From positions 1-60,719 of the forward strand of contig WFUO01000053.1 in NCBI GenBank assembly GCA_015484945.1: a DNA stretch of 60,719 bases, read 5' to 3'. This document shows positions 40,903 to 53,694 of this stretch, one piece after another. Position 1 is the first letter of the stretch, and each line of letters starts with the position of its first letter. The DNA comes from Gammaproteobacteria bacterium (lineage in GTDB: Bacteria > Pseudomonadota > Gammaproteobacteria > WFUO01). The notes under the pieces were generated by a model that did no database searches, was not told the DNA's origin, and worked only from the letters and a program-made list of their open reading frames with translations. A program made the translations under genes and the position numbers.

Positions 40903-42093
40903 ATGATCAACCCGATTGGATCCGACAAACTCATGCCCCTGTTCGTCTATGACGACAAGCAGCACGAGGCGCTGATGCATGAGGCCGAAACCCTGCCATC
41001 CATACTGATCAGCTCCGCGGCCGCCGGCAACGCGGTGATGATGGGCGGCGGTTACTTTACGCCCCTGAAGGGCTTCATGAACGTAGCCGATGCGATGGGC
41101 TGCGCCGAGAACATGAAGATGACCGACGGCACCTTCTTCCCGGTACCGGTGCTGAACCTGGTCGAGAACGCCGACGCCATCAAGGGCGCCAAGCGCATCG
41201 CCCTGCGCGACCCCAATGTCGAGGGCAACCCGGTGATCGCCATCCAGGACGTCGAGGCCATCGAGGAGATCAGCGACGAACAGATGCAGTTCATGACCGA
41301 GAAGGTCTATCGCACCACCGATATGGAGCACCCCGGCGTGGCCGCGTTCAACAGCGTTGGCCGCATGGCCATCTCGGGTCCGATCCAGGTGCTCAACTTC
41401 AGCTACTTCATTCTCGATTTCCCGGACACCTTCCGTACCGCGGTCGAGATCCGCAACGAGATCGCCGAACGCGGCTGGAACAAGGTAGTCGCGTTCCAGA
41501 CCCGCAACCCGATGCACCTGGCCCATGAAGAGCTGTGCCACATGGCCATGGAACGCACCGGCGCCGATGGCCTGGTCATCCACATGCTGCTCGGCAAGCT
41601 CAAGCCGGGCGATATCCCCGCACCGGTGCGCGACGCCGCGATCCGCAAGATGGTAGAGCTGTACTTCCCGCCGAACTCGGTCATGGTCACCGGCTACGGC
41701 TTCGACATGCTCTATGCCGGCCCGCGCGAGGCTGTGCTGCACGCCTATTTCCGCCAGAACATGGGCGCCACGCATTTCATCATCGGCCGCGACCATGCCG
41801 GCGTGGGCGACTACTACGGCGCCTTCGACGCACAGACCATCTTCGACGAGGAAGTGCCGCCTGGTGCGTTGCAAATAGAAATCTTCCGCGCCGACCACAC
41901 GGCCTGGTCGAAGAAACTGAACAAGGTCGTCATGATGCGCGAGGCGCCGGATCACACCAAGGACGACTTCGTGCTGCTCTCCGGCACCAAGGTGCGCGAG
42001 ATGCTCGGCCAGGGCATCGCGCCGCCCAAGGAGTTCTCGCGCCCGGAAGTCGCACAGATCCTGATCGACTACTACCAGAGCCTGAACGACTGA
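40903..42093 (+). CDS. sat: Dissimilatory ATP sulfurylase Sat
   Basis: A 396-residue enzyme from ATG 40903, preceded by GAGGATG. The nucleotide-binding motif QTRNPMHLAH is at residues 199-208 and GRDHAGVGDYYG lies near 290. It converts APS and pyrophosphate to ATP and sulfate, the last step of the indirect sulfite oxidation pathway begun by AprBA. Length and motifs fit the single-chain form used by sulfur oxidisers and sulfate reducers, not CysDN. It is monocistronic and ends in a strong terminator. Confidence 0.95.
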   Translation: MINPIGSDKLMPLFVYDDKQHEALMHEAETLPSILISSAAAGNAVMMGGGYFTPLKGFMNVADAMGCAENMKMTDGTFFPVPVLNLVENADAIKGAKRIALRDPNVEGNPVIAIQDVEAIEEISDEQMQFMTEKVYRTTDMEHPGVAAFNSVGRMAISGPIQVLNFSYFILDFPDTFRTAVEIRNEIAERGWNKVVAFQTRNPMHLAHEELCHMAMERTGADGLVIHMLLGKLKPGDIPAPVRDAAIRKMVELYFPPNSVMVTGYGFDMLYAGPREAVLHAYFRQNMGATHFIIGRDHAGVGDYYGAFDAQTIFDEEVPPGALQIEIFRADHTAWSKKLNKVVMMREAPDHTKDDFVLLSGTKVREMLGQGIAPPKEFSRPEVAQILIDYYQSLND

Positions 42094-42119
42094 GCCTGTT
42101 ACAGGCCAGGCACCGAAGA

Positions 42120-42142
42120 AGCCCGCTGCACGCGGGCTTTTT
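42120..42142 (+). terminator. Terminator after sat
   Basis: AGCCCGC (42120-42126) pairs with GCGGGCT (42132-42138) around TGCAC, followed by a run of T (42138-42142). It is 26 bp past the sat stop. Confidence 0.9.
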
Positions 42143-42304
42143 CATTGATATCCGCTTTGCAGCCGGCATGCTCCACCGGGCCAGGGCACACGTCACAGGC
42201 ACCCTGGCGCCAATTATTTCCCGCCAATGTGCAACTTATTTCAATCGTGACACTCCAAGGCTTACGGGCAGCCAAGCCCGCAACAGACCAAAGGAGTTGA
42301 CCCA

Positions 42305-42610
42305 ATGAAATCGACCAGAAAACCCATCACTGCCGTCATCGGATCGGCCTTCGTCAGTTCTGCCCTGATCATGGGCGCGGCACAGGCCAGGAACGCCAAC
42401 CCCTTCGCCATGAACGAACTGTCAACAGGCTATACCCTGGCACAAGGTGACAAACCCGCCGAAAAGGACGTCAGGAAGGGCAAGGAAGGCAATTGTGGCG
42501 AGGGCAAGTGCGGCGCCAACAAGAGCAAGATGAAACCCGGTGAAGGCAAGTGCGGCGCCAACAAGGACAAGATGAAGGACCATGAGGGAAAATGTGGCGG
42601 CATGAAATAA
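42305..42610 (+). CDS. HvfA-like RiPP metallophore precursor with EGKCG repeats
   Basis: A 101-residue secreted precursor with a strong AAGGAG ribosome binding site. The signal peptide is residues 1-28 (ending MGAAQA). After it comes NPFAMNELSTGY, a segment typical of HvfA-type precursors. The C-terminal part carries E-G-N-C-G (61-65) and three E-G-K-C-G units (66-70, 80-84, 94-98), the last three at an exact 14-residue period. In known HvfA families, E-G-K-C-G cysteines are converted by MNIO (DUF692) enzymes into oxazolone/thioamide copper ligands. No MNIO (HvfB) or HvfC partner gene lies next to it here. A terminator follows. Confidence 0.8.
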   Translation: MKSTRKPITAVIGSAFVSSALIMGAAQARNANPFAMNELSTGYTLAQGDKPAEKDVRKGKEGNCGEGKCGANKSKMKPGEGKCGANKDKMKDHEGKCGGMK

Positions 42611-42634
42611 CCTGCTGCAGCTTTCATAAAGACG

Positions 42635-42658
42635 AGGCCCGGCATTGCCGGGCCTTTT
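42635..42658 (+). terminator. Terminator after the HvfA-like gene
   Basis: AGGCCCGGC (42635-42643) pairs with GCCGGGCCT (42647-42655) around ATT, followed by T to 42658. It may also serve the convergent porin gene. Confidence 0.88.
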
Positions 42659-42733: not shown

Positions 42734-43807
42734 TCAGAACTTGAAAACAATACCCAGCGAGAACGCGCTTGGGCTGCCACCCAGGTCGGTCTTGATTTCA
42801 TCACCATGGCCGCCATCGGCGCCCTGATACCTGGCATTGGTATCGTTGTTCGTGCGCGTGTAGGCCGCATACCAGGTCGTTTTCTTGTTGAGCTTGCCAA
42901 ACAACCCCAGCGACAAGGAATCTGCGCCCGAAGAGGCAACGCCATCATAATCATTGGCCTTCATGTATTCGGCCTTGATGGTCTTGCCGCCACCGATCTT
43001 GATGGCGCCGTTGATCCCCCAGGCGCTGCGGTTCAGCGAACTGCCGGCCGTATCGGTGTCGATGTTCTCGTATATGAACCCCAGCCTGATATTGTTGATA
43101 CTGTATTTGACGGCCGCGCGCATGCCCTTGACGCCGGTGGCACCACCGAGGCTGTTGTCACCCCAGTTGACATAACCGAACGCGATATACAGCGGACCAC
43201 TCTTGTAGAACGCGGCGGCGCTGAACATGTCAAGATCATTGTTGTCGATACCACCCGAGGCGCTGTCCTTGCCATCAGGCGAGTATTGCAGCATGAGTTT
43301 TACGTCACCAAACCTGTTGACATACATCAGCATGTTCTTGGCGCGGTTATTGACCTTGTTGCCGGTGGTGGCGCCCGCGCCCATGATCTTTCGGCGGTCA
43401 CCGACCGAATCGCCAAAATTACTCCACTTGCTGGCAACGATCTTGAACGGCGTGTCATGGTAACCGAACAGGATGCGACCGAACCCCCCTTTCAGCCCAA
43501 GATAGGTATTACGGCTGGCAAAGGTGCCACTGGCTTCATCGAAGCGTATTTCCTGCTCTATCTGATACAAGCCGGTCAGTCCACTGTCGATCGGTATCGC
43601 GCCCTTGAACCCCAGCCGGGTCGAGTTACTGGAGAGACTGAAATCGTTCTGGCCGTTCGGCGCCGCGCGGTCATTGTCACTCATATCGGCCGACAGATGG
43701 ATCTTGCCATAGACCACCAGCTTCTTGCCGACCACCTCGATGGCATTGGCAGCAACCGGGATCATCAGCGCACCGGCCAGTGCCAGACTCATCATTTTCT
43801 TTTGCAT
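42734..43807 (-). CDS. Outer-membrane porin (Gram-negative porin family)
   Basis: A 357-residue protein from ATG 43807 (GGAG upstream); the open frame runs further back without a signal peptide. It has a signal peptide (MMSLALAGALMIPVAANA), then alternating hydrophobic strands such as LVVYGKIHLSADMS, STRLGFKGAIPID, YLGLKGGFGRILFGYHD and ending in SLGIVFKF with the terminal Phe needed for BAM insertion. The GGFGRILFGYHDTPF turn is typical of the porin_4 family. A four-repeat Pho box upstream suggests induction by phosphate starvation and thus an anion/phosphate role, which is an inference. Confidence 0.9.
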   Translation of the reverse strand: MQKKMMSLALAGALMIPVAANAIEVVGKKLVVYGKIHLSADMSDNDRAAPNGQNDFSLSSNSTRLGFKGAIPIDSGLTGLYQIEQEIRFDEASGTFASRNTYLGLKGGFGRILFGYHDTPFKIVASKWSNFGDSVGDRRKIMGAGATTGNKVNNRAKNMLMYVNRFGDVKLMLQYSPDGKDSASGGIDNNDLDMFSAAAFYKSGPLYIAFGYVNWGDNSLGGATGVKGMRAAVKYSINNIRLGFIYENIDTDTAGSSLNRSAWGINGAIKIGGGKTIKAEYMKANDYDGVASSGADSLSLGLFGKLNKKTTWYAAYTRTNNDTNARYQGADGGHGDEIKTDLGGSPSAFSLGIVFKF

Positions 43808-44536: not shown

Positions 44537-45202
44537 TCAATCAGGCGCGACGGACATGCCTTTGTGGCAATCACTGCATTCGCGTTTCTCACGGCGGAAT
44601 TTTTCATGCAGCTTGCCGTCCTTGTCGAAGTCTTCGGCAATCCGGTGGGCAATGCCCATATGGCAGTCGATGCAGGTCTTGCCATCCCTGGCCGATGCGG
44701 CATGCTTGCGCGCCGCCAGCCGTGATTGCTTCTTCAGCGCCATGGCCTTGAAACTGTGGCAGTTGCGGCATTCGCGCGAATCGGTTTCCTTCATCATGCG
44801 CCATACCCGTTTCGAGAGATACAGGCGCCGTTTGAGAAATTTCTCGCGCGTGTCGATGGTGCCGACGATCTTGTGGTAGAGCTCGTTGGTGGCGCTGATC
44901 TTGCGCGCGACCATGTGCACCCATTCACGCGGCACATGACAGTCCGGGCAGGTGGCCTTGACCCCGGTGGGATTGGAATAGTGAATGGTTTTGCGGTATT
45001 CCTTGTACACGTTGTCGCGCATTTCGTGACATGAAATACAGAATGCCTCGTTATTGGTCATCTCCATGGCCATGTTGAACCCGCCCCAGAACAGGATGCC
45101 GGTGACGAACATGATCATGGATGCCGGACAGGGATGTTCCTTCGCATATCGGAACATGCCGCCAATCTTGCGCCGCAGGAAGCCCTTTTTCTTTTCGCTC
45201 AT
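44537..45202 (-). CDS. napC: NapC/NirT-family multiheme cytochrome c with five CxxCH motifs
   Basis: A 221-residue protein with one N-terminal membrane anchor (MIMFVTGILFWGGFNMAM). Heme motifs are CISCH (55-59), CPDCH (85-89), CRNCH (145-149), CIDCH (177-181) and CSDCH (209-213). NapC-family quinol dehydrogenases normally have four; the fifth lies in the C-terminal tail. It would take electrons from quinol and deliver them to the periplasmic partners of the operon. It is the last gene of the nine-gene minus-strand operon and overlaps napF by 4 bp. Confidence 0.88.
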   Translation of the reverse strand: MSEKKKGFLRRKIGGMFRYAKEHPCPASMIMFVTGILFWGGFNMAMEMTNNEAFCISCHEMRDNVYKEYRKTIHYSNPTGVKATCPDCHVPREWVHMVARKISATNELYHKIVGTIDTREKFLKRRLYLSKRVWRMMKETDSRECRNCHSFKAMALKKQSRLAARKHAASARDGKTCIDCHMGIAHRIAEDFDKDGKLHEKFRREKRECSDCHKGMSVAPD

Positions 45203-45783
45203 ACGTTTTTCGTTTCCTTTTTCCAGGCCGTGATCAGGATGGCCGGGGGCTGCATGATGCAGGCCTCACGGCACAGGCCACAGCCGCTACAACGTTCGGC
45301 CTTGATGACCGGACGCTCACCCTCCCATCCCAGCGCACCATCGATCGGGCAACTGTCACGGCAGGCGCCGCACTCGGGCCCCTGATAGGGCAGACACTGT
45401 CCAGTGTCGATACTGGCCAGCGCCAGGCGTGGCCAGTAACGCCTGCCACCCTCTATCTCCGGCAAAGCCAGCGCGCCGGGCTCGCAGGCCGCAACACAGG
45501 GCCAGTCCTCACACAGGTGGCAACCATGATTGAGCAGATCCAGTGCCGGGGTGCCGGCCACGCTGGCACCCAGCCTGGCGGACAGGCCAAAGACCACGTC
45601 ATGCGGACAGGCCTTTTCACATTCGCCACAGCGCGTGCAGGCCAGCAGGAACTCCAGTTCGTCCAGTGCCCAGGGTGGACGTATCCAGTGCGCGGCCCGG
45701 GCTTCGGCCTTGCGCGCGGCCTCCTTGACGACGGTCTCGCCGGTCTTCTTCAGGCCGCGCCGGAAGAATTCACGCCGTTCCAC
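45199..45783 (-). CDS. napF: NapF-like four-cluster ferredoxin
   Basis: A 194-residue protein starting with GTG at 45783. It starts MERREFFRRGL and carries four cysteine groups: CTRCGECEKACPHDVV, CHLCEDWPCVAACEPGAL, CGACRDSCPIDGALG and CSGCGLCREACIMQPP. No signal peptide is convincing, so it may be cytoplasmic like NapF, which is linked to NapA maturation or electron supply. It overlaps the upstream polyferredoxin gene by 14 bp and the NapC-like gene by 4 bp. Confidence 0.82.
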   Translation of the reverse strand: MERREFFRRGLKKTGETVVKEAARKAEARAAHWIRPPWALDELEFLLACTRCGECEKACPHDVVFGLSARLGASVAGTPALDLLNHGCHLCEDWPCVAACEPGALALPEIEGGRRYWPRLALASIDTGQCLPYQGPECGACRDSCPIDGALGWEGERPVIKAERCSGCGLCREACIMQPPAILITAWKKETKNV

Positions 45784-47377
45784 AACTCGCCCCCAGCATG
45801 CGCATGACCATCGGCTGCATCAGCATCCACAGGTTGAAAAGGCTCACCACGGCCACGAACAGCAGCATTGGCAGCATGGCCAGGCGCAGACCGTCCGGCC
45901 GGTCCGTTACCAGACTCGCCAGACGTTTGCGCACCACCCGCACCGCGAGCCAGAAACCGGCCAGGATCAGCATGGCCTGCAAGGCAAACAACAGGTTCTG
46001 CGGGATCAGCGGGTTCAGGTGACGAATATGGATTTCTATGCTGCTCAATGGCCGCGCGCCAATACCCAGTGGATTTGCCAGCACAGACCAGAAGCCCTGG
46101 CTCTCGCGCACCAGATGATTGATGTTGTGCGCGATGTGATAGCAGAAGGCCAGCGGCAGGGTGGCCAGTGCCATCGCGGAAAACAGCCGTGCGCCATGGG
46201 TAATGCCGGTCAGGCGCCGCGTGACCGTCACGGCCAGCAGATACAGCAGAACGGGAACCAGCATGCTGGCGGCCATCAACACGCTAAATCCGGCGATCAC
46301 CCCGCTGCGTTCGCCCAGCCAGGTGGAAACTCCGGTGACCCAGGTATCCCAGAATGGCAGCATGGTCACGCCATGAAAGCTGGTCAGCGCCAGCAGGCCG
46401 AGCAGGAACCAGGCTTCGTCGTTGTGCGGTCGCACGTCGCTGAGCACCTCTTCGGCCACCGGCCGCAAGCGCCACGCGACGTTGTGATGCGGGCAGCTCT
46501 GCGTGCAGTTGCCGCACGACGTGCAATAGGTGTTCTGCTGCAATCGGCCAACGACCAGGTGGGTTGGACAGGGCTCGACCCGGTCATTGCCGTGATAGCA
46601 TTCGAGCGTCGTGCAGCGGGCGCAGATGTCGGGATCAATGGGACGCACCGCGACCGGCGATAGCCCTGCATAGAAACCGATCGTGCGCCCGACCGGGCAG
46701 AAGTAACGACAGAAGGCCTTGCGCTCAAAGATCGCCAGCGACAGCGTGGCGAGCACCACCATCAGCAGCGCCAGCAGGGCCGTGACATAGGGGTTGGTCG
46801 TCACCCCGACCCCCAGCTCGAGCCAGGTGAGGCCGATGAACATCATCAGCGCCGGCCATACGCTGCGCAATGGCCTGGGCACCTTGAGACCCAGGCCCAG
46901 CGCATGCTGCCGCCGCCAGAACAGCCTGCCCTTGACCAGCAGATTGGCCAGCGTGTCCCAGGGACACACGGCGCACCAGGCCGTGCCGACGAAGAAGATC
47001 GCAATCACCAGCCCCGCCCACCAGATCGTCCAGGTCAGCGTGGTGGCGAGGTTGCGCTCAGGTATCGGCGTTCCCGACAGGCCGGCATAGATGACGACGA
47101 GAAAAAACGCCAGCATCACCAGCTTCATTGTCATGAGCACAACCGGGCTGGCGGTCAGCCGGCGAACGATGCCGCCAGCCACCGGCACCCTGGCCAGACT
47201 GACGCCATTGGCCCCGGTGACCCCGGGCTCTCGCCGCAGCAGCACCCATGCGATGCCGGCCAGCATGCCGGCCAGCACCAGGTTGACCCATACATCCGGC
47301 AGGCCCGGGTGCATGGTCGGGCCCGTCTGTTCGATCGTCAACCAACGCCAGTCGGGAAGCCAGATCATTGGTATCAA
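45770..47377 (-). CDS. NosR/NapH-like polytopic polyferredoxin
   Basis: A 535-residue membrane protein starting at TTG 47377 (GAGG 7 nt upstream), with an ATG at 47368 as the alternative. It has about ten hydrophobic segments. Cysteine motifs WCAVCPWDTLANL and CRYFCPVGRTIGFYAG are the C-x-x-x-C-P type of NapH/NosR. They are followed by [4Fe-4S] groups CARCTTLECYHGNDRVEPCP and CTSCGNCTQSCPHHN. It has no NosR-type FMN domain. It is a second membrane polyferredoxin in this operon, in addition to NapH. Its stop overlaps napF. Confidence 0.78.
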   Translation of the reverse strand: MIPMIWLPDWRWLTIEQTGPTMHPGLPDVWVNLVLAGMLAGIAWVLLRREPGVTGANGVSLARVPVAGGIVRRLTASPVVLMTMKLVMLAFFLVVIYAGLSGTPIPERNLATTLTWTIWWAGLVIAIFFVGTAWCAVCPWDTLANLLVKGRLFWRRQHALGLGLKVPRPLRSVWPALMMFIGLTWLELGVGVTTNPYVTALLALLMVVLATLSLAIFERKAFCRYFCPVGRTIGFYAGLSPVAVRPIDPDICARCTTLECYHGNDRVEPCPTHLVVGRLQQNTYCTSCGNCTQSCPHHNVAWRLRPVAEEVLSDVRPHNDEAWFLLGLLALTSFHGVTMLPFWDTWVTGVSTWLGERSGVIAGFSVLMAASMLVPVLLYLLAVTVTRRLTGITHGARLFSAMALATLPLAFCYHIAHNINHLVRESQGFWSVLANPLGIGARPLSSIEIHIRHLNPLIPQNLLFALQAMLILAGFWLAVRVVRKRLASLVTDRPDGLRLAMLPMLLFVAVVSLFNLWMLMQPMVMRMLGASCGTA

Positions 47378-47946
47378 GTGCGTTCCTCGGCATGATGGCG
47401 GCTGGTCTGCAGACGCTGCAAACGCCGGCGCTGGATAACATTCACGCTCACCAGCAGCAGGACAATGACGATCACGGTGATGCCCAACGGGCCAACCGGT
47501 GACGGGTTGCCGATGCGAATCGGAAAATCGATCGTGTACGGCTCGCCATCGGCCTGGAATCTGGCCGTGATGATATAGTCGCCGGCCTTGTTGAACACGA
47601 AACCCTGACGATAGACATTGTCGTCAGGGTCCTGGGTGCCGATCACTTCGGGATCGGGCGCAAACCAGCGGTCGTCACGCACCAGAAAGGTCACCTTGCC
47701 GGCGAATGGCTTGCCATCCTTGATACGGCGCAGATACAGATTGACCCGGCCGCGTTCCTTCGGCCGGGGGAAAGCCGGAAACGCCATGAAGGTTGCGTAG
47801 TACTTGCCGATCCGTGTCTCGACCTGCATGCTCGGCGGGGTATTGGAATCCTCGTTGAGGCTGTAGGCCGGCCGGCCGAGCACGTGATGGGCTTGCGCGT
47901 CAAAGCCCAGCAGCAACAGGAACAACAGTATCAGGCGTCTTCTCAT
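47374..47946 (-). CDS. Membrane-anchored periplasmic FixH/YtkA-like protein
   Basis: A 190-residue protein from ATG 47946. It has a signal peptide (MRRRLILLFLLLLGFDAQA), a beta-sandwich-like periplasmic domain beginning HHVLGRPAYSLNED, and a C-terminal membrane helix (LGITVIVIVLLLVSVNVI). The layout resembles FixH or YtkA-like proteins, some of which handle copper, but the match is by architecture only. It overlaps both neighbours by 4 bp. Its conserved place inside the operon suggests an assembly or metal-handling role, which is an inference. Confidence 0.6.
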   Translation of the reverse strand: MRRRLILLFLLLLGFDAQAHHVLGRPAYSLNEDSNTPPSMQVETRIGKYYATFMAFPAFPRPKERGRVNLYLRRIKDGKPFAGKVTFLVRDDRWFAPDPEVIGTQDPDDNVYRQGFVFNKAGDYIITARFQADGEPYTIDFPIRIGNPSPVGPLGITVIVIVLLLVSVNVIQRRRLQRLQTSRHHAEERT

Positions 47947-48572
47947 TGGCGTTTTCTCCGGATGCCTATGCCATGTTTTGCCACGGTCCCCTCGGAGCGA
48001 TCGACGATCCTGATTGCGAGGCTGGGTTCCGGGCAGACTTCCACGCACAGCCCGCAACCGACACATCCCCGCTTGACGACGGGACGGTAGATATTGCCGG
48101 CCTTGAAGCCGATTGCATGCTCACCCAATGGACAGATACTGACACAGGCACCACAGATACCACGATCGACCCACGGATAACAGGCCACGCGGTCGATCTG
48201 GGCCACGCCCATGTCGATCTTGCGTATCGGCGTCTCCTGCAAGGCATCGGTCGGACAATGCTTCATGCACAGCCCGCACAGTATGCAGCCCTTGATCGAT
48301 GGATCGATATAGGGCGTGTTGCTGCGGTCTCCGCCCGTCCGGTCATGGAAACGGATCGCCCTGACGGGACAAACCTCGCCGCACAGCCCACAACCGATAC
48401 AGGCGGCATTGAAGGCCTTGTCATCCTTCAATGCCCCCGGGGGCCGGAGATGATTCTGCCGGGGGCGCGCCGTGGCCGGTGACAGCAGGCGCGCCAATCC
48501 GTAGGGCAGGGCAGAGAAGCCGATGATCGCTGTCGTAAAGACTGCCTTGCCGAGAAAGTCCCTGCGCCGCAT
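47943..48572 (-). CDS. napG: Second NapG/MauM-like periplasmic ferredoxin
   Basis: A 209-residue protein from ATG 48572, which overlaps the napH stop (TGATG). The Tat-like leader is MRRRDFLGKAVFTTAI. Four [4Fe-4S] groups follow: CIGCGLCGEVCPVRAI, CILCGLCMKHCPTDAL, CYPWVDRGICGACVSICP and CVGCGLCVEVCPEPSLAI. NapG passes electrons from NapH to NapA. Together with the napG-like gene upstream of napH this operon has two NapG-type proteins. Confidence 0.85.
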   Translation of the reverse strand: MRRRDFLGKAVFTTAIIGFSALPYGLARLLSPATARPRQNHLRPPGALKDDKAFNAACIGCGLCGEVCPVRAIRFHDRTGGDRSNTPYIDPSIKGCILCGLCMKHCPTDALQETPIRKIDMGVAQIDRVACYPWVDRGICGACVSICPLGEHAIGFKAGNIYRPVVKRGCVGCGLCVEVCPEPSLAIRIVDRSEGTVAKHGIGIRRKRQ

Positions 48573-49585
48573 CACGTGCCGCTCCCCTGTGCCTGCTTGC
48601 GGTAAAGCCGACCCAGGTGTCCCGGGCCCTGGAACGGCACGTCCCGCATGCTGACGGTGAACTTCAACGCATCGGTCGGACACACGGCGATGCAGGCGCT
48701 GCAGTTGTTGCATTCCTGACCGAAATCGTCATGCAGCGGATCCAGGCCGAACTGGCAGATCGCATTGCACTTGGCGCAGTCATTGCACGTCTCGACCTTG
48801 CGCCGGATACGAAACAGCCGGAACCGGCCAAGCAGTGAATACAGCGCGCCCCCCGGACAGACATAGCGGCAGAAACCCCGCCGGGTCAGCATCAGATCGA
48901 ACAACAAGGTGAGAATGAAAAACACCGCGCCGACGCCGAAACCCTGCTGGGCAACGGCATAATAGATCTCGCGGCCGATGACGGCGGGCGGATAGATGGC
49001 GGCGAACAGCACTGCGCCGGTGATGTACGACAGCACGATACCGGCAGCCAGAACCAGATATTTCATGCGCCGGTCGAGCCTGCGGCGGCCGATCGGAACA
49101 CCCACCTTGCGCAACCAGCTGGCGAGGTTGTCGTTGAGTTCGTAGATCAGCGTGGCCGGACAGATCCAGCCGCAGAACACACGCCCGAACACCACGGTCA
49201 CGGCCACCGGAATCAGCGCGGTCATGACAAACGGCCAGTACCAGTCCAGTCCGGCCGACACCTGTCCGACCACGGCCAGGGGATCGGACAGTTTGACACC
49301 GAACAACGAGCCCGACCATGTCGTACCCTTGATCGCGTTGAGATCTGTGGCCGGGTCGGTTACGAATGGCCTGGTCAGCCACTCCATCACATCGTACAGA
49401 CGCCTCTCCGGCGCCGACAGCAGGTCATAGGCATGTGCGGCGACATAGGTCTGGTACAGGTGCAGAAACGGCAACAGCACCAGCATCAAAAACACTATGA
49501 CGAGCACCACCCAGCGCAACTTGTTCAGATGTCGCAACGGATAGGCAGGCTTGATATCGGTAGTCGCGGAAACTTCGGCTGACAT
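48572..49585 (-). CDS. napH: NapH-like membrane quinol dehydrogenase
   Basis: A 337-residue protein with about five hydrophobic segments. Conserved motifs are FCGWICPATLIYELND and GFCRYVCPGGALYSLLGR (the C-x-x-x-C-P pair), followed by cytoplasmic-side clusters CNDCAKCNAICQFGLDP and CNNCSACIAVCPTDALKF. NapGH forms a quinol dehydrogenase that feeds NapA. It lies between the two NapG-type genes. Confidence 0.9.
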   Translation of the reverse strand: MSAEVSATTDIKPAYPLRHLNKLRWVVLVIVFLMLVLLPFLHLYQTYVAAHAYDLLSAPERRLYDVMEWLTRPFVTDPATDLNAIKGTTWSGSLFGVKLSDPLAVVGQVSAGLDWYWPFVMTALIPVAVTVVFGRVFCGWICPATLIYELNDNLASWLRKVGVPIGRRRLDRRMKYLVLAAGIVLSYITGAVLFAAIYPPAVIGREIYYAVAQQGFGVGAVFFILTLLFDLMLTRRGFCRYVCPGGALYSLLGRFRLFRIRRKVETCNDCAKCNAICQFGLDPLHDDFGQECNNCSACIAVCPTDALKFTVSMRDVPFQGPGHLGRLYRKQAQGSGT

Positions 49586-49593
49586 CGTTTTAG

Positions 49594-50169
49594 TTATCCT
49601 TCATGCGCGGGAATGATTCGAATCGCCTGTGGCATCTGGATACAGGATCGCTCACACAGGCCGCAGCCCACACAATCCTTGAGCACGTGCGGCTGTTCCA
49701 GACGCCCGACGCGAATGGCGATATCCGGCAGCGGACAGGCGCGGTAACAGACACCGCAGGTCTTGCCCTGCCATGACAGGCACAGGCTACGATCGACCCT
49801 GGCCTTGCCCATCCTGACCTCGCTGATGATGGTGCGCGCCTTGCGTTCGATCCGCCGGATGGCGCCGGTAGGACAGACCTCGCCGCATTTCATGCACAGG
49901 ATACAGGCCTTCTCGCGCGGAATGATATAGGGCGTATCCATCGACGCCAGACCGTTCTGGTACTGGAAGTACTTGATGGTGCGGTTCGGGCACACCTCGC
50001 CGCACTTGCCACAGTGGATACAGCGCTGCAGGAATTCGGATTCCGGCAGCGAACCCGGTGGCCTCAGATAGCGCAACCCGGGCTGGTTGCGCGCCGCCAT
50101 GCCCGTGGTGGGCAACAGGCTGATGAGGGCGCCACCGGCAATGGCCTTGATGAAATGTCTGCGTTTCAT
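49594..50169 (-). CDS. napG: NapG-like periplasmic ferredoxin with Tat signal
   Basis: A 191-residue protein from ATG 50169. The Tat leader is MKRRHFIKAIAGGALISLLP. Four cluster motifs are CIHCGKCGEVCPNRTIKY, CILCMKCGEVCPTGAIRR, CLSWQGKTCGVCYRACPLP and CVGCGLCERSCIQMPQAI. It sits directly downstream of napA and upstream of napH, the usual napAGH order. Confidence 0.9.
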   Translation of the reverse strand: MKRRHFIKAIAGGALISLLPTTGMAARNQPGLRYLRPPGSLPESEFLQRCIHCGKCGEVCPNRTIKYFQYQNGLASMDTPYIIPREKACILCMKCGEVCPTGAIRRIERKARTIISEVRMGKARVDRSLCLSWQGKTCGVCYRACPLPDIAIRVGRLEQPHVLKDCVGCGLCERSCIQMPQAIRIIPAHEG

Positions 50170-50236
50170 GTATGTGCTTCCTGGCTCCTGCCGTCCGGGG
50201 AAGACCGGCCCCGGACGGCAGCACCCTGATTTGGCC

Positions 50237-52936
50237 CTATACCTTCTCGATACGACAGGCCAGTTTCTTGAAGTCCACCTGACCGGAGACCAGATCCCAT
50301 ACGCGGCTGGATACCGAGTTGACCAGCCACTTGTTCTTTCTGGGATCGGCGCTGTCGGCCACCGACAGGTTCCACGGACTGAACATATAACCCCGTGGTA
50401 CGACATTGCGCGCCGGCTTGACCAGGCTGTTGGTGCCCACCTGGGCGCGCGCCTCGAAATGTCCGCGCCGGGTCACCAGGCGCACCTTGTCGCCATCCTT
50501 GATACCCAGATCCTTCGCATCCTGCTCATGGATCTCGACATACATCTCCGGCACCAGCCGGCGCGTGGTCGGACTGCGGTTCGACTTGGCGGTATGGAAG
50601 TGCTCATAGACGACCCCAAGACCCAGCCAGTACGGATACTTGTCCTTGGGCACCTCGTTCCATGGCTTGCCGCGATAGCCCTCGTCCGGCAAATCGGGCG
50701 TCAGCGCCATGTCACGCGCCTGTTTGAGCAACGGAATGTTGTCGATGGTATAGACACCCGGCTTGTGGCCGAACTCCATCAGTTTTTTGGTGATCTCCTC
50801 GCGCTGCGAGTAGTCCTGCTGGCACAGTTTCATGTGCACCTTGCCGTCCTTGGTACGGAAGTAGCCATACGGCCGGTTCTTCCACTGCCCTTCCTGCAGC
50901 ATGTAACGGCGCTTGGTGCCACCCTTCTTTGCAATCTCGTAGGTCGGCGCCGGCCACTGGATACCGCGCAGCTCGGCAAGCTGCTGATAGGGGGATTTCT
51001 TGTCCAGCTTCTCGACCTCGAGGATGCCGGTGAGATCGGTATCGGTGCCGGCCGAGGCCCTGATGATATCGCGGAACACTTCCTCGGCATCGTAGAAACC
51101 GTCTTTCTTGCGCTTCCACGGGAAGATCTTGTCGGCATCCAGGCCGAGCAGATGGGCGATCTCACGGCCCTTGTCGATCACCATGTCCATGTCGGGCCGG
51201 CAACCCTTGGGTGGTTCGGCGCCCTTCTGGCAGATGTTGAGCCGCCGCTCGGAGCTGATATAGATGCCTTCAAACTCGCCCCAGGTGGCCGCCGGGAAGA
51301 TCACGTCGGCATACAGGTTGTTGGGCGCATGCCGGTAGATCTCCTGCACCACGTTGAAGGTCTTCATCAGCGCCGGTCGCACCAGGGTCTGCTGATCCGG
51401 CAGGTCGATGTGCGTCGCATAGACGAAGAACATGGCCTTTACGTCACCCTTGAGTGCGCGCTCCATCATGCCAACCGCCATACCCGGATTCTTCGAGTTC
51501 ATGGCCCTGACCAGATTGGCCTCGGGCACCCGCCACTGTCTGGCCATCCACTTGCGATGCCGGGTGTTGGTCAGCGGTTCGTTGAACGGCAGACGTCCGG
51601 TCAGGCCGCCGGTAAACCGTTCGCCCATCGCGTTGGGCTGGCCGGTCATCGAGAACGGACCACAGCCGGGCTTGGCCAGGTTGCCGGTCAGGGTCAGCAG
51701 ATTGATGATGGAGATGACATTGTTCTGGCCATGGATGTGCTGGTTGTAACCAATGCCCCACATGATGATGACGCCGCCATAACCCTGGCCCGAATGCTTG
51801 CCCTTGCTGCGCGCCAGGCGCTTGCGCGTGGCGTCGGCGAACATCCCGGCCACCTTGCGGATCAGCGATGGAGGAACCTCATGGTTCTTGCCGCCCATGC
51901 GATCCTGCACCTGTTCCGGGCTGTAGTCGGCCAGCACGCCATCGACATACTCCTTCCATCCCGTGGTGTGCGCCTTGAGGAAATCCCAGTCGATCACGTC
52001 CGGGTGCTCCTTGAGCAGAACATGGGCGATGGCATTCAGGAAACTGATATCGCCGTTGAGAATGGGCACGTGCACCGAGTTGTCGGGGTTGATGTCGGCA
52101 TAACCCTTGGCGGTGCCGGTATAGCGCGGATCGACGACAACCGTGGGGATGTTCTTCTTGCGCTTGTAGTCGGCCGCGCGCCAGAAGATGATCGGATGCG
52201 ACTCACGCGCATTGTGACCGAAGTGCATGATCATGTCGCACAGTTCGATGTCCTCGTAGGCCAGTGGCGGCGTATCGGAGCCGAGGGTGGCGAAATAGCC
52301 GGTCACCGCCGACGTCATGCACATGCGCGCGTTGGCCTCGATGGTGTTGGAACCGAGCACGCCTTTCATGAACAGGTTTTCCAGATACTGGCCTTCCATG
52401 GTCAACTGTCCGGAACCATACAGCCCGATGGAATTGCCGCCATATTTCTTGGCGAGATGGGCAATCTTGTGCGCCACCATTTCCGAGGCCTTTTCGTACG
52501 GTACGCGGACGAAGTGCTCGTCGTCGAACGACCCCTTGGTCTTGCTGATATACTCGAGATCGCCATGGCCCGGCTTGTTCCATTCTTCCCAGACATCCTT
52601 GCGCACGTAGGTATCGCCTTCCATGCGATCGACATAGATCGGCTCGGCCGCGGTCAGGCCCTTGATGCACTGCAGGCCATAGTTGGTCGGGTGATCCTTG
52701 TCCGGGCGCATGGACACGATCTTGCCGTTCTCGCTCTGGATGATGGTGCCGCAGCCGACACCGCAGTACGGGCACTGGGCGATCGCCGTCTTGCGCCCGG
52801 TACTGCTTGACCCTTCGGCGGGCGCCGCCTCGAGTTCCGGGTTGTCGGCCACGAACAGGCTGGCGCCAGCCGCCGATCCGGTGATGAATGCACTGCCCTT
52901 GAGGAAGTTTCTGCGTGTAATCTTGAAGCGTTTCAT
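50237..52936 (-). CDS. napA: NapA-like periplasmic molybdopterin oxidoreductase (nitrate reductase family)
   Basis: An 899-residue protein with a Tat signal (ITRRNFLKGSAFITGSAAG). The [4Fe-4S] motif is CPYCGVGC with a fourth Cys in GLQCIKG. The predicted Mo-ligand Cys is in ARMCMTSAVTGYFATLGSD, and GHNARESHPIIFWR follows, where E. coli NapA has an AEMHP-type string. Mo-bisMGD contacts such as GQNNVISIINLLTLTGNLAK and FVYATHIDLPDQ are visible. It is some 70 residues longer than E. coli NapA. Nitrate is the most likely substrate, but no NapB or NapD is encoded nearby, so another oxyanion cannot be excluded. A diheme cytochrome gene precedes it. Confidence 0.82.
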   Translation of the reverse strand: MKRFKITRRNFLKGSAFITGSAAGASLFVADNPELEAAPAEGSSSTGRKTAIAQCPYCGVGCGTIIQSENGKIVSMRPDKDHPTNYGLQCIKGLTAAEPIYVDRMEGDTYVRKDVWEEWNKPGHGDLEYISKTKGSFDDEHFVRVPYEKASEMVAHKIAHLAKKYGGNSIGLYGSGQLTMEGQYLENLFMKGVLGSNTIEANARMCMTSAVTGYFATLGSDTPPLAYEDIELCDMIMHFGHNARESHPIIFWRAADYKRKKNIPTVVVDPRYTGTAKGYADINPDNSVHVPILNGDISFLNAIAHVLLKEHPDVIDWDFLKAHTTGWKEYVDGVLADYSPEQVQDRMGGKNHEVPPSLIRKVAGMFADATRKRLARSKGKHSGQGYGGVIIMWGIGYNQHIHGQNNVISIINLLTLTGNLAKPGCGPFSMTGQPNAMGERFTGGLTGRLPFNEPLTNTRHRKWMARQWRVPEANLVRAMNSKNPGMAVGMMERALKGDVKAMFFVYATHIDLPDQQTLVRPALMKTFNVVQEIYRHAPNNLYADVIFPAATWGEFEGIYISSERRLNICQKGAEPPKGCRPDMDMVIDKGREIAHLLGLDADKIFPWKRKKDGFYDAEEVFRDIIRASAGTDTDLTGILEVEKLDKKSPYQQLAELRGIQWPAPTYEIAKKGGTKRRYMLQEGQWKNRPYGYFRTKDGKVHMKLCQQDYSQREEITKKLMEFGHKPGVYTIDNIPLLKQARDMALTPDLPDEGYRGKPWNEVPKDKYPYWLGLGVVYEHFHTAKSNRSPTTRRLVPEMYVEIHEQDAKDLGIKDGDKVRLVTRRGHFEARAQVGTNSLVKPARNVVPRGYMFSPWNLSVADSADPRKNKWLVNSVSSRVWDLVSGQVDFKKLACRIEKV

Positions 52937-52956
52937 GTCTTTTCTCCTTGGCAGTC

Positions 52957-53694
52957 TTATTTACTGGGTATGGTCCGCAGATAGGCGATGATGTCGTCGA
53001 TCTCGCGGTCGCTCAGGTTCGCCAGCGCATCCGGCCCGCTGAAACCGAGCATGCGGGTATTCGAACGGCCTTTCTTGATGGTCATGCGGATGAAGCCATC
53101 GGTCGCCTTGTTGAGAAACCCGGCCTTGCCGATCGCGGTACCGGTGCCGCCCCGGGCATAGCCATCGCCATTGACGCCATGACAGGTGGCGCAGACCTGA
53201 TCGAACCAGATCTTGCCGAGCCGTGGGTCACCATGCGCCTCGGGCTGTGCATCGACCTGGGCTGAAAGGTTCGGTTCCGTGGTGTGCGAGCGCAGATAGG
53301 CCAGGATGGCCTCGATACCTGAACGGCCGAGATGCGCGAATGGCGGCATGCCGGTACCCGGGCGGCCATCACGAATCGTACCCTTGATGAACTTGTCGGA
53401 CGCGTAACGCAAAAATTCCGGATTGGTCAGCGAGGGTGCGACGCCCGGCTTGCCGATTGCATCGGCCTGATGACAGAACTGGCAGTTCTGCTTGTAAAGC
53501 TTCTCCCCCTTGGCCACCATTTCCGGACTGGGCTTGATCACCACCCCCCGGCTGGCCGGTTTTTCGGCCTTCTTCTCCGGCACGGCCTTTGTGGCCTTTT
53601 TCTTATCCTGGCCCTGGTCGCCGCCACCCGAGCAACCGGCCACGGCCAGCGACGCGGCCATGACGAGGGTCAGGCTCAGTTGTTTGATTCTCAT
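52957..53694 (-). CDS. Diheme cytochrome c lipoprotein, possible NapB substitute
   Basis: A 245-residue protein with a lipobox (LAVAGC) and a lysine-rich linker, followed by two cytochrome c domains. Heme motifs are CQFCHQADAIG (about residue 72) and CATCHGVNGDG (about 172). Each domain has a later Met that could be the axial ligand (GTGMPPFAHLG, and NTRMLGFSGPD). It is first in the operon, 20 bp before napA, behind an FNR-type promoter. Classical NapB has a different small fold. An electron-carrier role to NapA is inferred from position. Confidence 0.85.
   Translation of the reverse strand: MRIKQLSLTLVMAASLAVAGCSGGGDQGQDKKKATKAVPEKKAEKPASRGVVIKPSPEMVAKGEKLYKQNCQFCHQADAIGKPGVAPSLTNPEFLRYASDKFIKGTIRDGRPGTGMPPFAHLGRSGIEAILAYLRSHTTEPNLSAQVDAQPEAHGDPRLGKIWFDQVCATCHGVNGDGYARGGTGTAIGKAGFLNKATDGFIRMTIKKGRSNTRMLGFSGPDALANLSDREIDDIIAYLRTIPSK

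Follow-up and report, generated by a model that had tools for sequence, protein, structure and literature searches.

The small gene at positions 42305–42610 encodes, judging from its sequence, a member of the HvfA/oxazolin (captophorin, EGKCG-type) family of metallophore precursors, and is an unlinked paralogue of a second precursor whose maturation machinery is encoded in the same genome. The window analysed, 60,719 nucleotides in length, is an entire contig (C53); the draft genome to which it belongs comprises 1.81 Mb in 65 contigs and is estimated to be 76% complete with contamination of 0. Neither MNIO (PF05114) nor HvfC (NF050145) was found in this 60.7-kb stretch; both are encoded, once each, on another contig (C35). 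The features of the locus are as follows.

40903–42093, plus strand: sat (ATP sulfurylase), upstream neighbour, outside the system (PF01747, 253 bits; PF14306, 124 bits)
42115–42143, no strand assigned: hairpin between sat and hvfA, −21.2 kcal/mol, T-rich 3′ arm
42291–42296, plus strand: AAGGAG, resembling a ribosome-binding site, 8 nt before the ATG of the precursor gene
42305–42610, plus strand: hvfA-type precursor gene, open reading frame with ATG start, 101 aa (P0001)
42305–42388, plus strand: Sec-type signal peptide, residues 1–28, consisting of MKSTRKP, hydrophobic ITAVIGSAFVSSALIMGA and an AQA cleavage-like site (by eye)
42398–42433, plus strand: conserved leader motif NPFAMNELSTGY, residues 32–43 (family pattern NPF..xLSxGY)
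42485–42499, plus strand: EGNCG unit, residues 61–65, abutting the first EGKCG
42500–42514, plus strand: EGKCG unit 1, residues 66–70
42500–42583, plus strand: 42-bp tandem repeat, two copies, 34/42 identical
42542–42556, plus strand: EGKCG unit 2, residues 80–84
42584–42598, plus strand: EGKCG unit 3, residues 94–98
42634–42656, no strand assigned: terminator-like hairpin between hvfA and the convergent porin, −20.5 kcal/mol
42734–43807, minus strand: Gram-negative porin, convergent downstream neighbour, outside the system (PF13609, 134 bits)

With NF050137, an NCBIfam domain model of the HvfA metallophore family, P0001 scored 44.6 bits (cut-off 19.5). This bears out the sequence-only reading's description of an HvfA-type precursor in which three EGKCG units accompany one EGNCG. 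By the full-length equivalog model, NF050188, P0001 reached 35.8 bits where 95 are required; since the HvfA encoded with the enzymes on C35 likewise fell short (40.5 bits), this narrow model is uninformative here, and family membership is assigned through NF050137. When the mature part was shuffled 200,000 times, not one sequence had two or more EG[KN]CG units. All four cysteines of P0001 lie within intact or near-intact MNIO motifs. The closest homologues outside the genome scored 69 bits (E = 1e-18), and alignment with operon-encoded relatives showed the same signal peptide layout. Beyond the leader motif the core, which bears the EGNCG and EGKCG units, is basic and is expected to be disordered. 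The bufferins (BufA1, with DUF2282, and BufA2) are comparable in their Sec signal, thiooxazole chemistry and the copper role given to them in the literature, but Pfam and NCBIfam profile searches found no DUF2282 or Buf2 match in P0001, which sets it apart from BufA1, and its core is of the EGKCG type.

The maturation genes lie together on C35, in the order hvfA–hvfB–hvfC–hvfX. The only PF05114 match in the genome (C35:73811–74596) is there, its HvfB product scoring 453.6 bits with NF003818 (cut-off 360), as are the only HvfC (NF050145, 320 bits, cut-off 142) and an HvfX (NF050144, 206 bits, cut-off 80) whose gene begins about 240 bp after hvfC. Genome-wide, EGKCG-type coding sites and NF050137 matches occurred in just two genes, those of P0001 and of the C35 HvfA, a protein of 138 aa with eight EGKCG units; P0001 has four units, counting its EGNCG. 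Both precursors carry the leader signature NPFAM-ELS-GY, the C35 counterpart of NPFAMNELSTGY being NPFAMTELSSGY, and their leaders are moderately alike (41% over 46 residues). The gene had been called an orphan, which holds insofar as the enzymes are not adjacent; it is nevertheless the second of two precursors, the other of which heads the C35 hvfABC locus. The sequence-only reading had also proposed searching the genome for DUF692/MNIO and HvfC genes, and held that its account would fail were no MNIO gene present; one of each was recovered, both on C35.

The gene probably has its own transcription unit. The hairpin at 42115–42143 is likely to be the sat terminator, acting bidirectionally, and as a terminator it implies that hvfA probably has its own promoter; with hairpins on both sides, the precursor gene is likely to form a single-gene transcript. 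A consensus scan flagged just the hairpin at 42634–42656, on the minus strand, and did not report that at 42115–42143; nor did it yield a sigma-70-like site for the precursor gene. Comparison with the C35 operon gave no common promoter element beyond a 10-bp match, and the sole upstream RNA element match, a Trp_leader on the opposite strand at 22 bits (threshold 41 bits), was taken as chance.

The neighbours were correctly described as sat and a porin, with no hvfB or hvfC alongside. A conserved sat–precursor unit was considered and rejected: among the 80 best-matching sat loci of related genomes, examined with flanks of up to 6 kb (some shorter), none had an EGKCG open reading frame, making sat an incidental neighbour and leaving unsupported the suggestion that the copper peptide has a special tie to sulfur oxidation. 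Since no blue copper protein (PF00127) was found in the genome, no cupredoxin link could be drawn. Elsewhere in the window, at 44537–53694 on the minus strand, a group of genes looks like a system for periplasmic nitrate reduction; named by eye, its contents include a molybdoenzyme (50237–52936), several 4Fe-4S proteins, a NapC/NirT-like multihaem cytochrome and a dihaem-type cytochrome.

The chemistry to be expected of such a precursor has been revised. Oxazolone and thioamide groups, as earlier invoked for these EGKCG units, are outdated, the modification having been reassigned to 5-thiooxazole (PMC13419390, PMC13097082), while NCBIfam names still follow the earlier assignment. In H. influenzae, HvfB with HvfC turns each EGKCG cysteine of HvfA into a 5-thiooxazole, at a loss of 4 Da per cysteine, and acts much better on HvfA that retains its Sec signal (PMC13419390). 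FonBC tolerates many motif changes, including A, R and T at position 3; N is not among the position-3 residues reported in the section consulted (PMC13097082). The EGNCG motif is, for its part, repeatedly present in MNIO-adjacent precursors of two related genomes (G093 and G214).

Unit starts in P0001 are spaced by 5, 14 and 14 residues. The 14-residue period noted earlier thus stands for the last three units, but not its interpretation as evenly spaced metal sites: it is the yield of a local 42-bp repeat, and relatives vary. Among 39 HvfA-like proteins spacings were mostly 5, and the others ranged from 9 to beyond 20 without settling on any one value; a spacing of 14 was seen 15 times, and two equal successive spacings greater than 5 occurred in 12/39. 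Regular spacing is thus best taken as a common by-product of repeat duplication, with no sign of special geometry.

Detached precursors are common in related genomes, as in published surveys. In a sample of the class, 87/369 genomes had a P0001-like gene, and an MNIO gene was present in 79/80 of those searched; 2–4 MNIO genes were found in many related genomes. For 30/94 precursor matches, in 29/80 genomes, the 5 kb to either side on the contig contained no MNIO, although some of these matches are at contig ends. Adjacency of MNIO and HvfC to HvfA-type precursors is therefore typical rather than universal, in agreement with PMC12452194, which records stand-alone precursor genes, up to four Buf_EGKCG genes per genome, and genomes with several precursors and one MNIO/PME1 pair; its authors propose that a single MNIO, together with its partner, acts on several related precursors.

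Several of these related genomes hold precursors of other kinds. Two detached precursors, L129:7235–10493 (G204) and L130:9928–10338 (G121), belong to different families and to one leader clade (support 99/97), and have in common a short pair of units at the C-terminus, EGKCG-x-SHMK-x-NEGKCGG, together with a long acidic/basic spacer; that of G204 directly follows the gene of a copper-type P-ATPase, a position in keeping with a role in copper handling. A further detached precursor-like type, with the pattern EGKCG...AVCGIY.(V/I)GS.H...D.(K/M)CGGH..VE.LCGGAR, is found at L132:5835–9755 (G080) and L134:5404–10170 (G359), in both cases downstream of the same two secreted or outer-membrane-like genes (without NCBIfam match), and is possibly a conserved stand-alone locus; in G080 an ECF-sigma-like gene, named by eye, lies nearby. 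In the HvfA-like precursors of L036 and L043, EGKCG units are separated by a segment that resembles an EF-hand (DxDGDGxxSxDE), and EF-hand matches in this family are recorded in PMC12452194.

Gene-order and family searches with the P0001 locus gave matches in its own genome alone. A tree of the leader region (55 columns) left P0001 unplaced and showed no particular closeness between its leader and that of the C35 precursor. In one family (f132: L127, L016, L017 and L143), hvfA occurs as tandem pairs in 4/4 genomes, directly upstream of hvfB in 3/3 checked for MNIO, and by the leader tree the pairs arose through duplication inside that lineage. A special descent of P0001 from the first copy of these pairs, considered for their 'GDKP' after the leader motif, is unsupported: all 8 f132 leader copies fell in one supported clade (98/95) with P0001 outside it, and orthology through the shared 'GDKP' is accordingly not claimed.

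These observations are consistent with a scheme in which the gene would be transcribed alone, as a second, stand-alone HvfA/oxazolin (captophorin) precursor, and the signal/leader region of P0001 would be bound by the genome's single HvfB–HvfC complex, encoded on C35. The complex would oxidise up to four cysteines of the EGNCG and EGKCG units to 5-thiooxazoles, after which the peptide would leave via Sec, chelate excess Cu(I) in the periplasm, and add its copper capacity to that of the operon-encoded precursor. We put the probability of this scheme as a whole at roughly 70%; recognition in trans, thiooxazole formation, export and copper binding are argued by analogy with characterised relatives. 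The earlier statement that the enzymes must act in trans is rendered plausible by the presence of HvfB, HvfC and HvfX on C35, while the modification is something we infer only. The leader motif common to both precursors makes recognition by one HvfC the simplest reading, and modification in trans would be the most economical. In support, two related genomes (G121 and G080, each complete on one contig) combine an unlinked and a linked precursor with a single MNIO. Counting against the scheme, P0001 has one adjacent pair of units (EGNCG-EGKCG), its other two being isolated by 9 residues; isolated units are, however, present in many natural MNIO-linked precursors. In PMC13097082, FonA shortened to a single unit was unmodified in vitro whereas two units were modified, and the EGNCG-EGKCG pair could accordingly be a better substrate than the isolated units. 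The moderate likeness of the leaders, the unplaced position of P0001 in the leader tree and the 76% completeness of the genome are further caveats.

The chief competing possibility is that P0001 is exported without being modified by HvfBC, either binding metal weakly through free thiols, serving some other purpose, or representing a decaying duplicate. The physical separation of gene and enzymes and the smaller number of motifs (four, against eight in the operon copy) speak for this, and PMC12452194 lists it as an alternative for extra precursors; but every cysteine is held within an MNIO motif, the leader motif is conserved, and a decaying duplicate would be expected to have lost its frame, signal peptide or motifs. 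We consider it unlikely. That P0001 is modified but functionally separate, with its own regulation and a wide unit spacing giving it a metal affinity or trigger distinct from that of the operon precursor, appears more doubtful still.

The other alternatives concern the assembly. A dedicated second MNIO for P0001 could lie in the missing quarter of a genome in 65 contigs, and the 2–4 MNIO genes of many relatives make this conceivable; with about 42 kb to the left and 18 kb to the right of the precursor free of MNIO, such an enzyme would still be unlinked, and the known C35 HvfB is already of the right subfamily, so that we judge it very improbable. Least credible is a binning artefact, in which C53 and C35 would stem from separate organisms, the one carrying the precursor having no MNIO. 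The genome is a fragmented draft, but the contamination estimate is 0 and, as noted, an MNIO gene accompanies precursor-like matches in 79/80 genomes searched. The GC content of the window matches that of C35, and its tetranucleotide correlation with three 20-kb C35 pieces (r = 0.88–0.95) exceeds that seen with regions taken from other genomes (0.57–0.84), which speaks against misbinning.

Set beside known systems, the preferred reading of P0001, as a stand-alone precursor served by the C35 enzymes, describes a phenomenon already known, namely a detached HvfA-type precursor with its enzymes elsewhere in the genome (PMC12452194). The hvfABCX system of Haemophilus influenzae shares with it the Sec signal, repeated EGKCG and the HvfB, HvfC and HvfX families, but P0001 is encoded outside the operon, has four mostly isolated units and falls below the NF050188 cut-off. 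Fontiphorin (FonA) and gonophorin, the 'captophorins' of PMC13097082, are alike in their EGKCG motif and in having an MNIO/PME1 pair in the genome; FonA differs in having seven modified sites and a gene within its cluster. From the stand-alone Buf_EGKCG/oxazolin precursors of PMC12452194, likewise encoded away from MNIO, P0001 shows no essential difference, and it adds a further example from an uncharacterised gammaproteobacterial sulfur oxidiser. Should the less probable, separate-function reading prove true, one HvfBC pair would supply two distinct metallophores. As assembled, with two precursors and one enzyme pair, the genome offers a clean test of whether a single HvfBC serves several, distant precursors; beyond its value as a test case, P0001 adds one more ordinary member to a large family of copper peptides.
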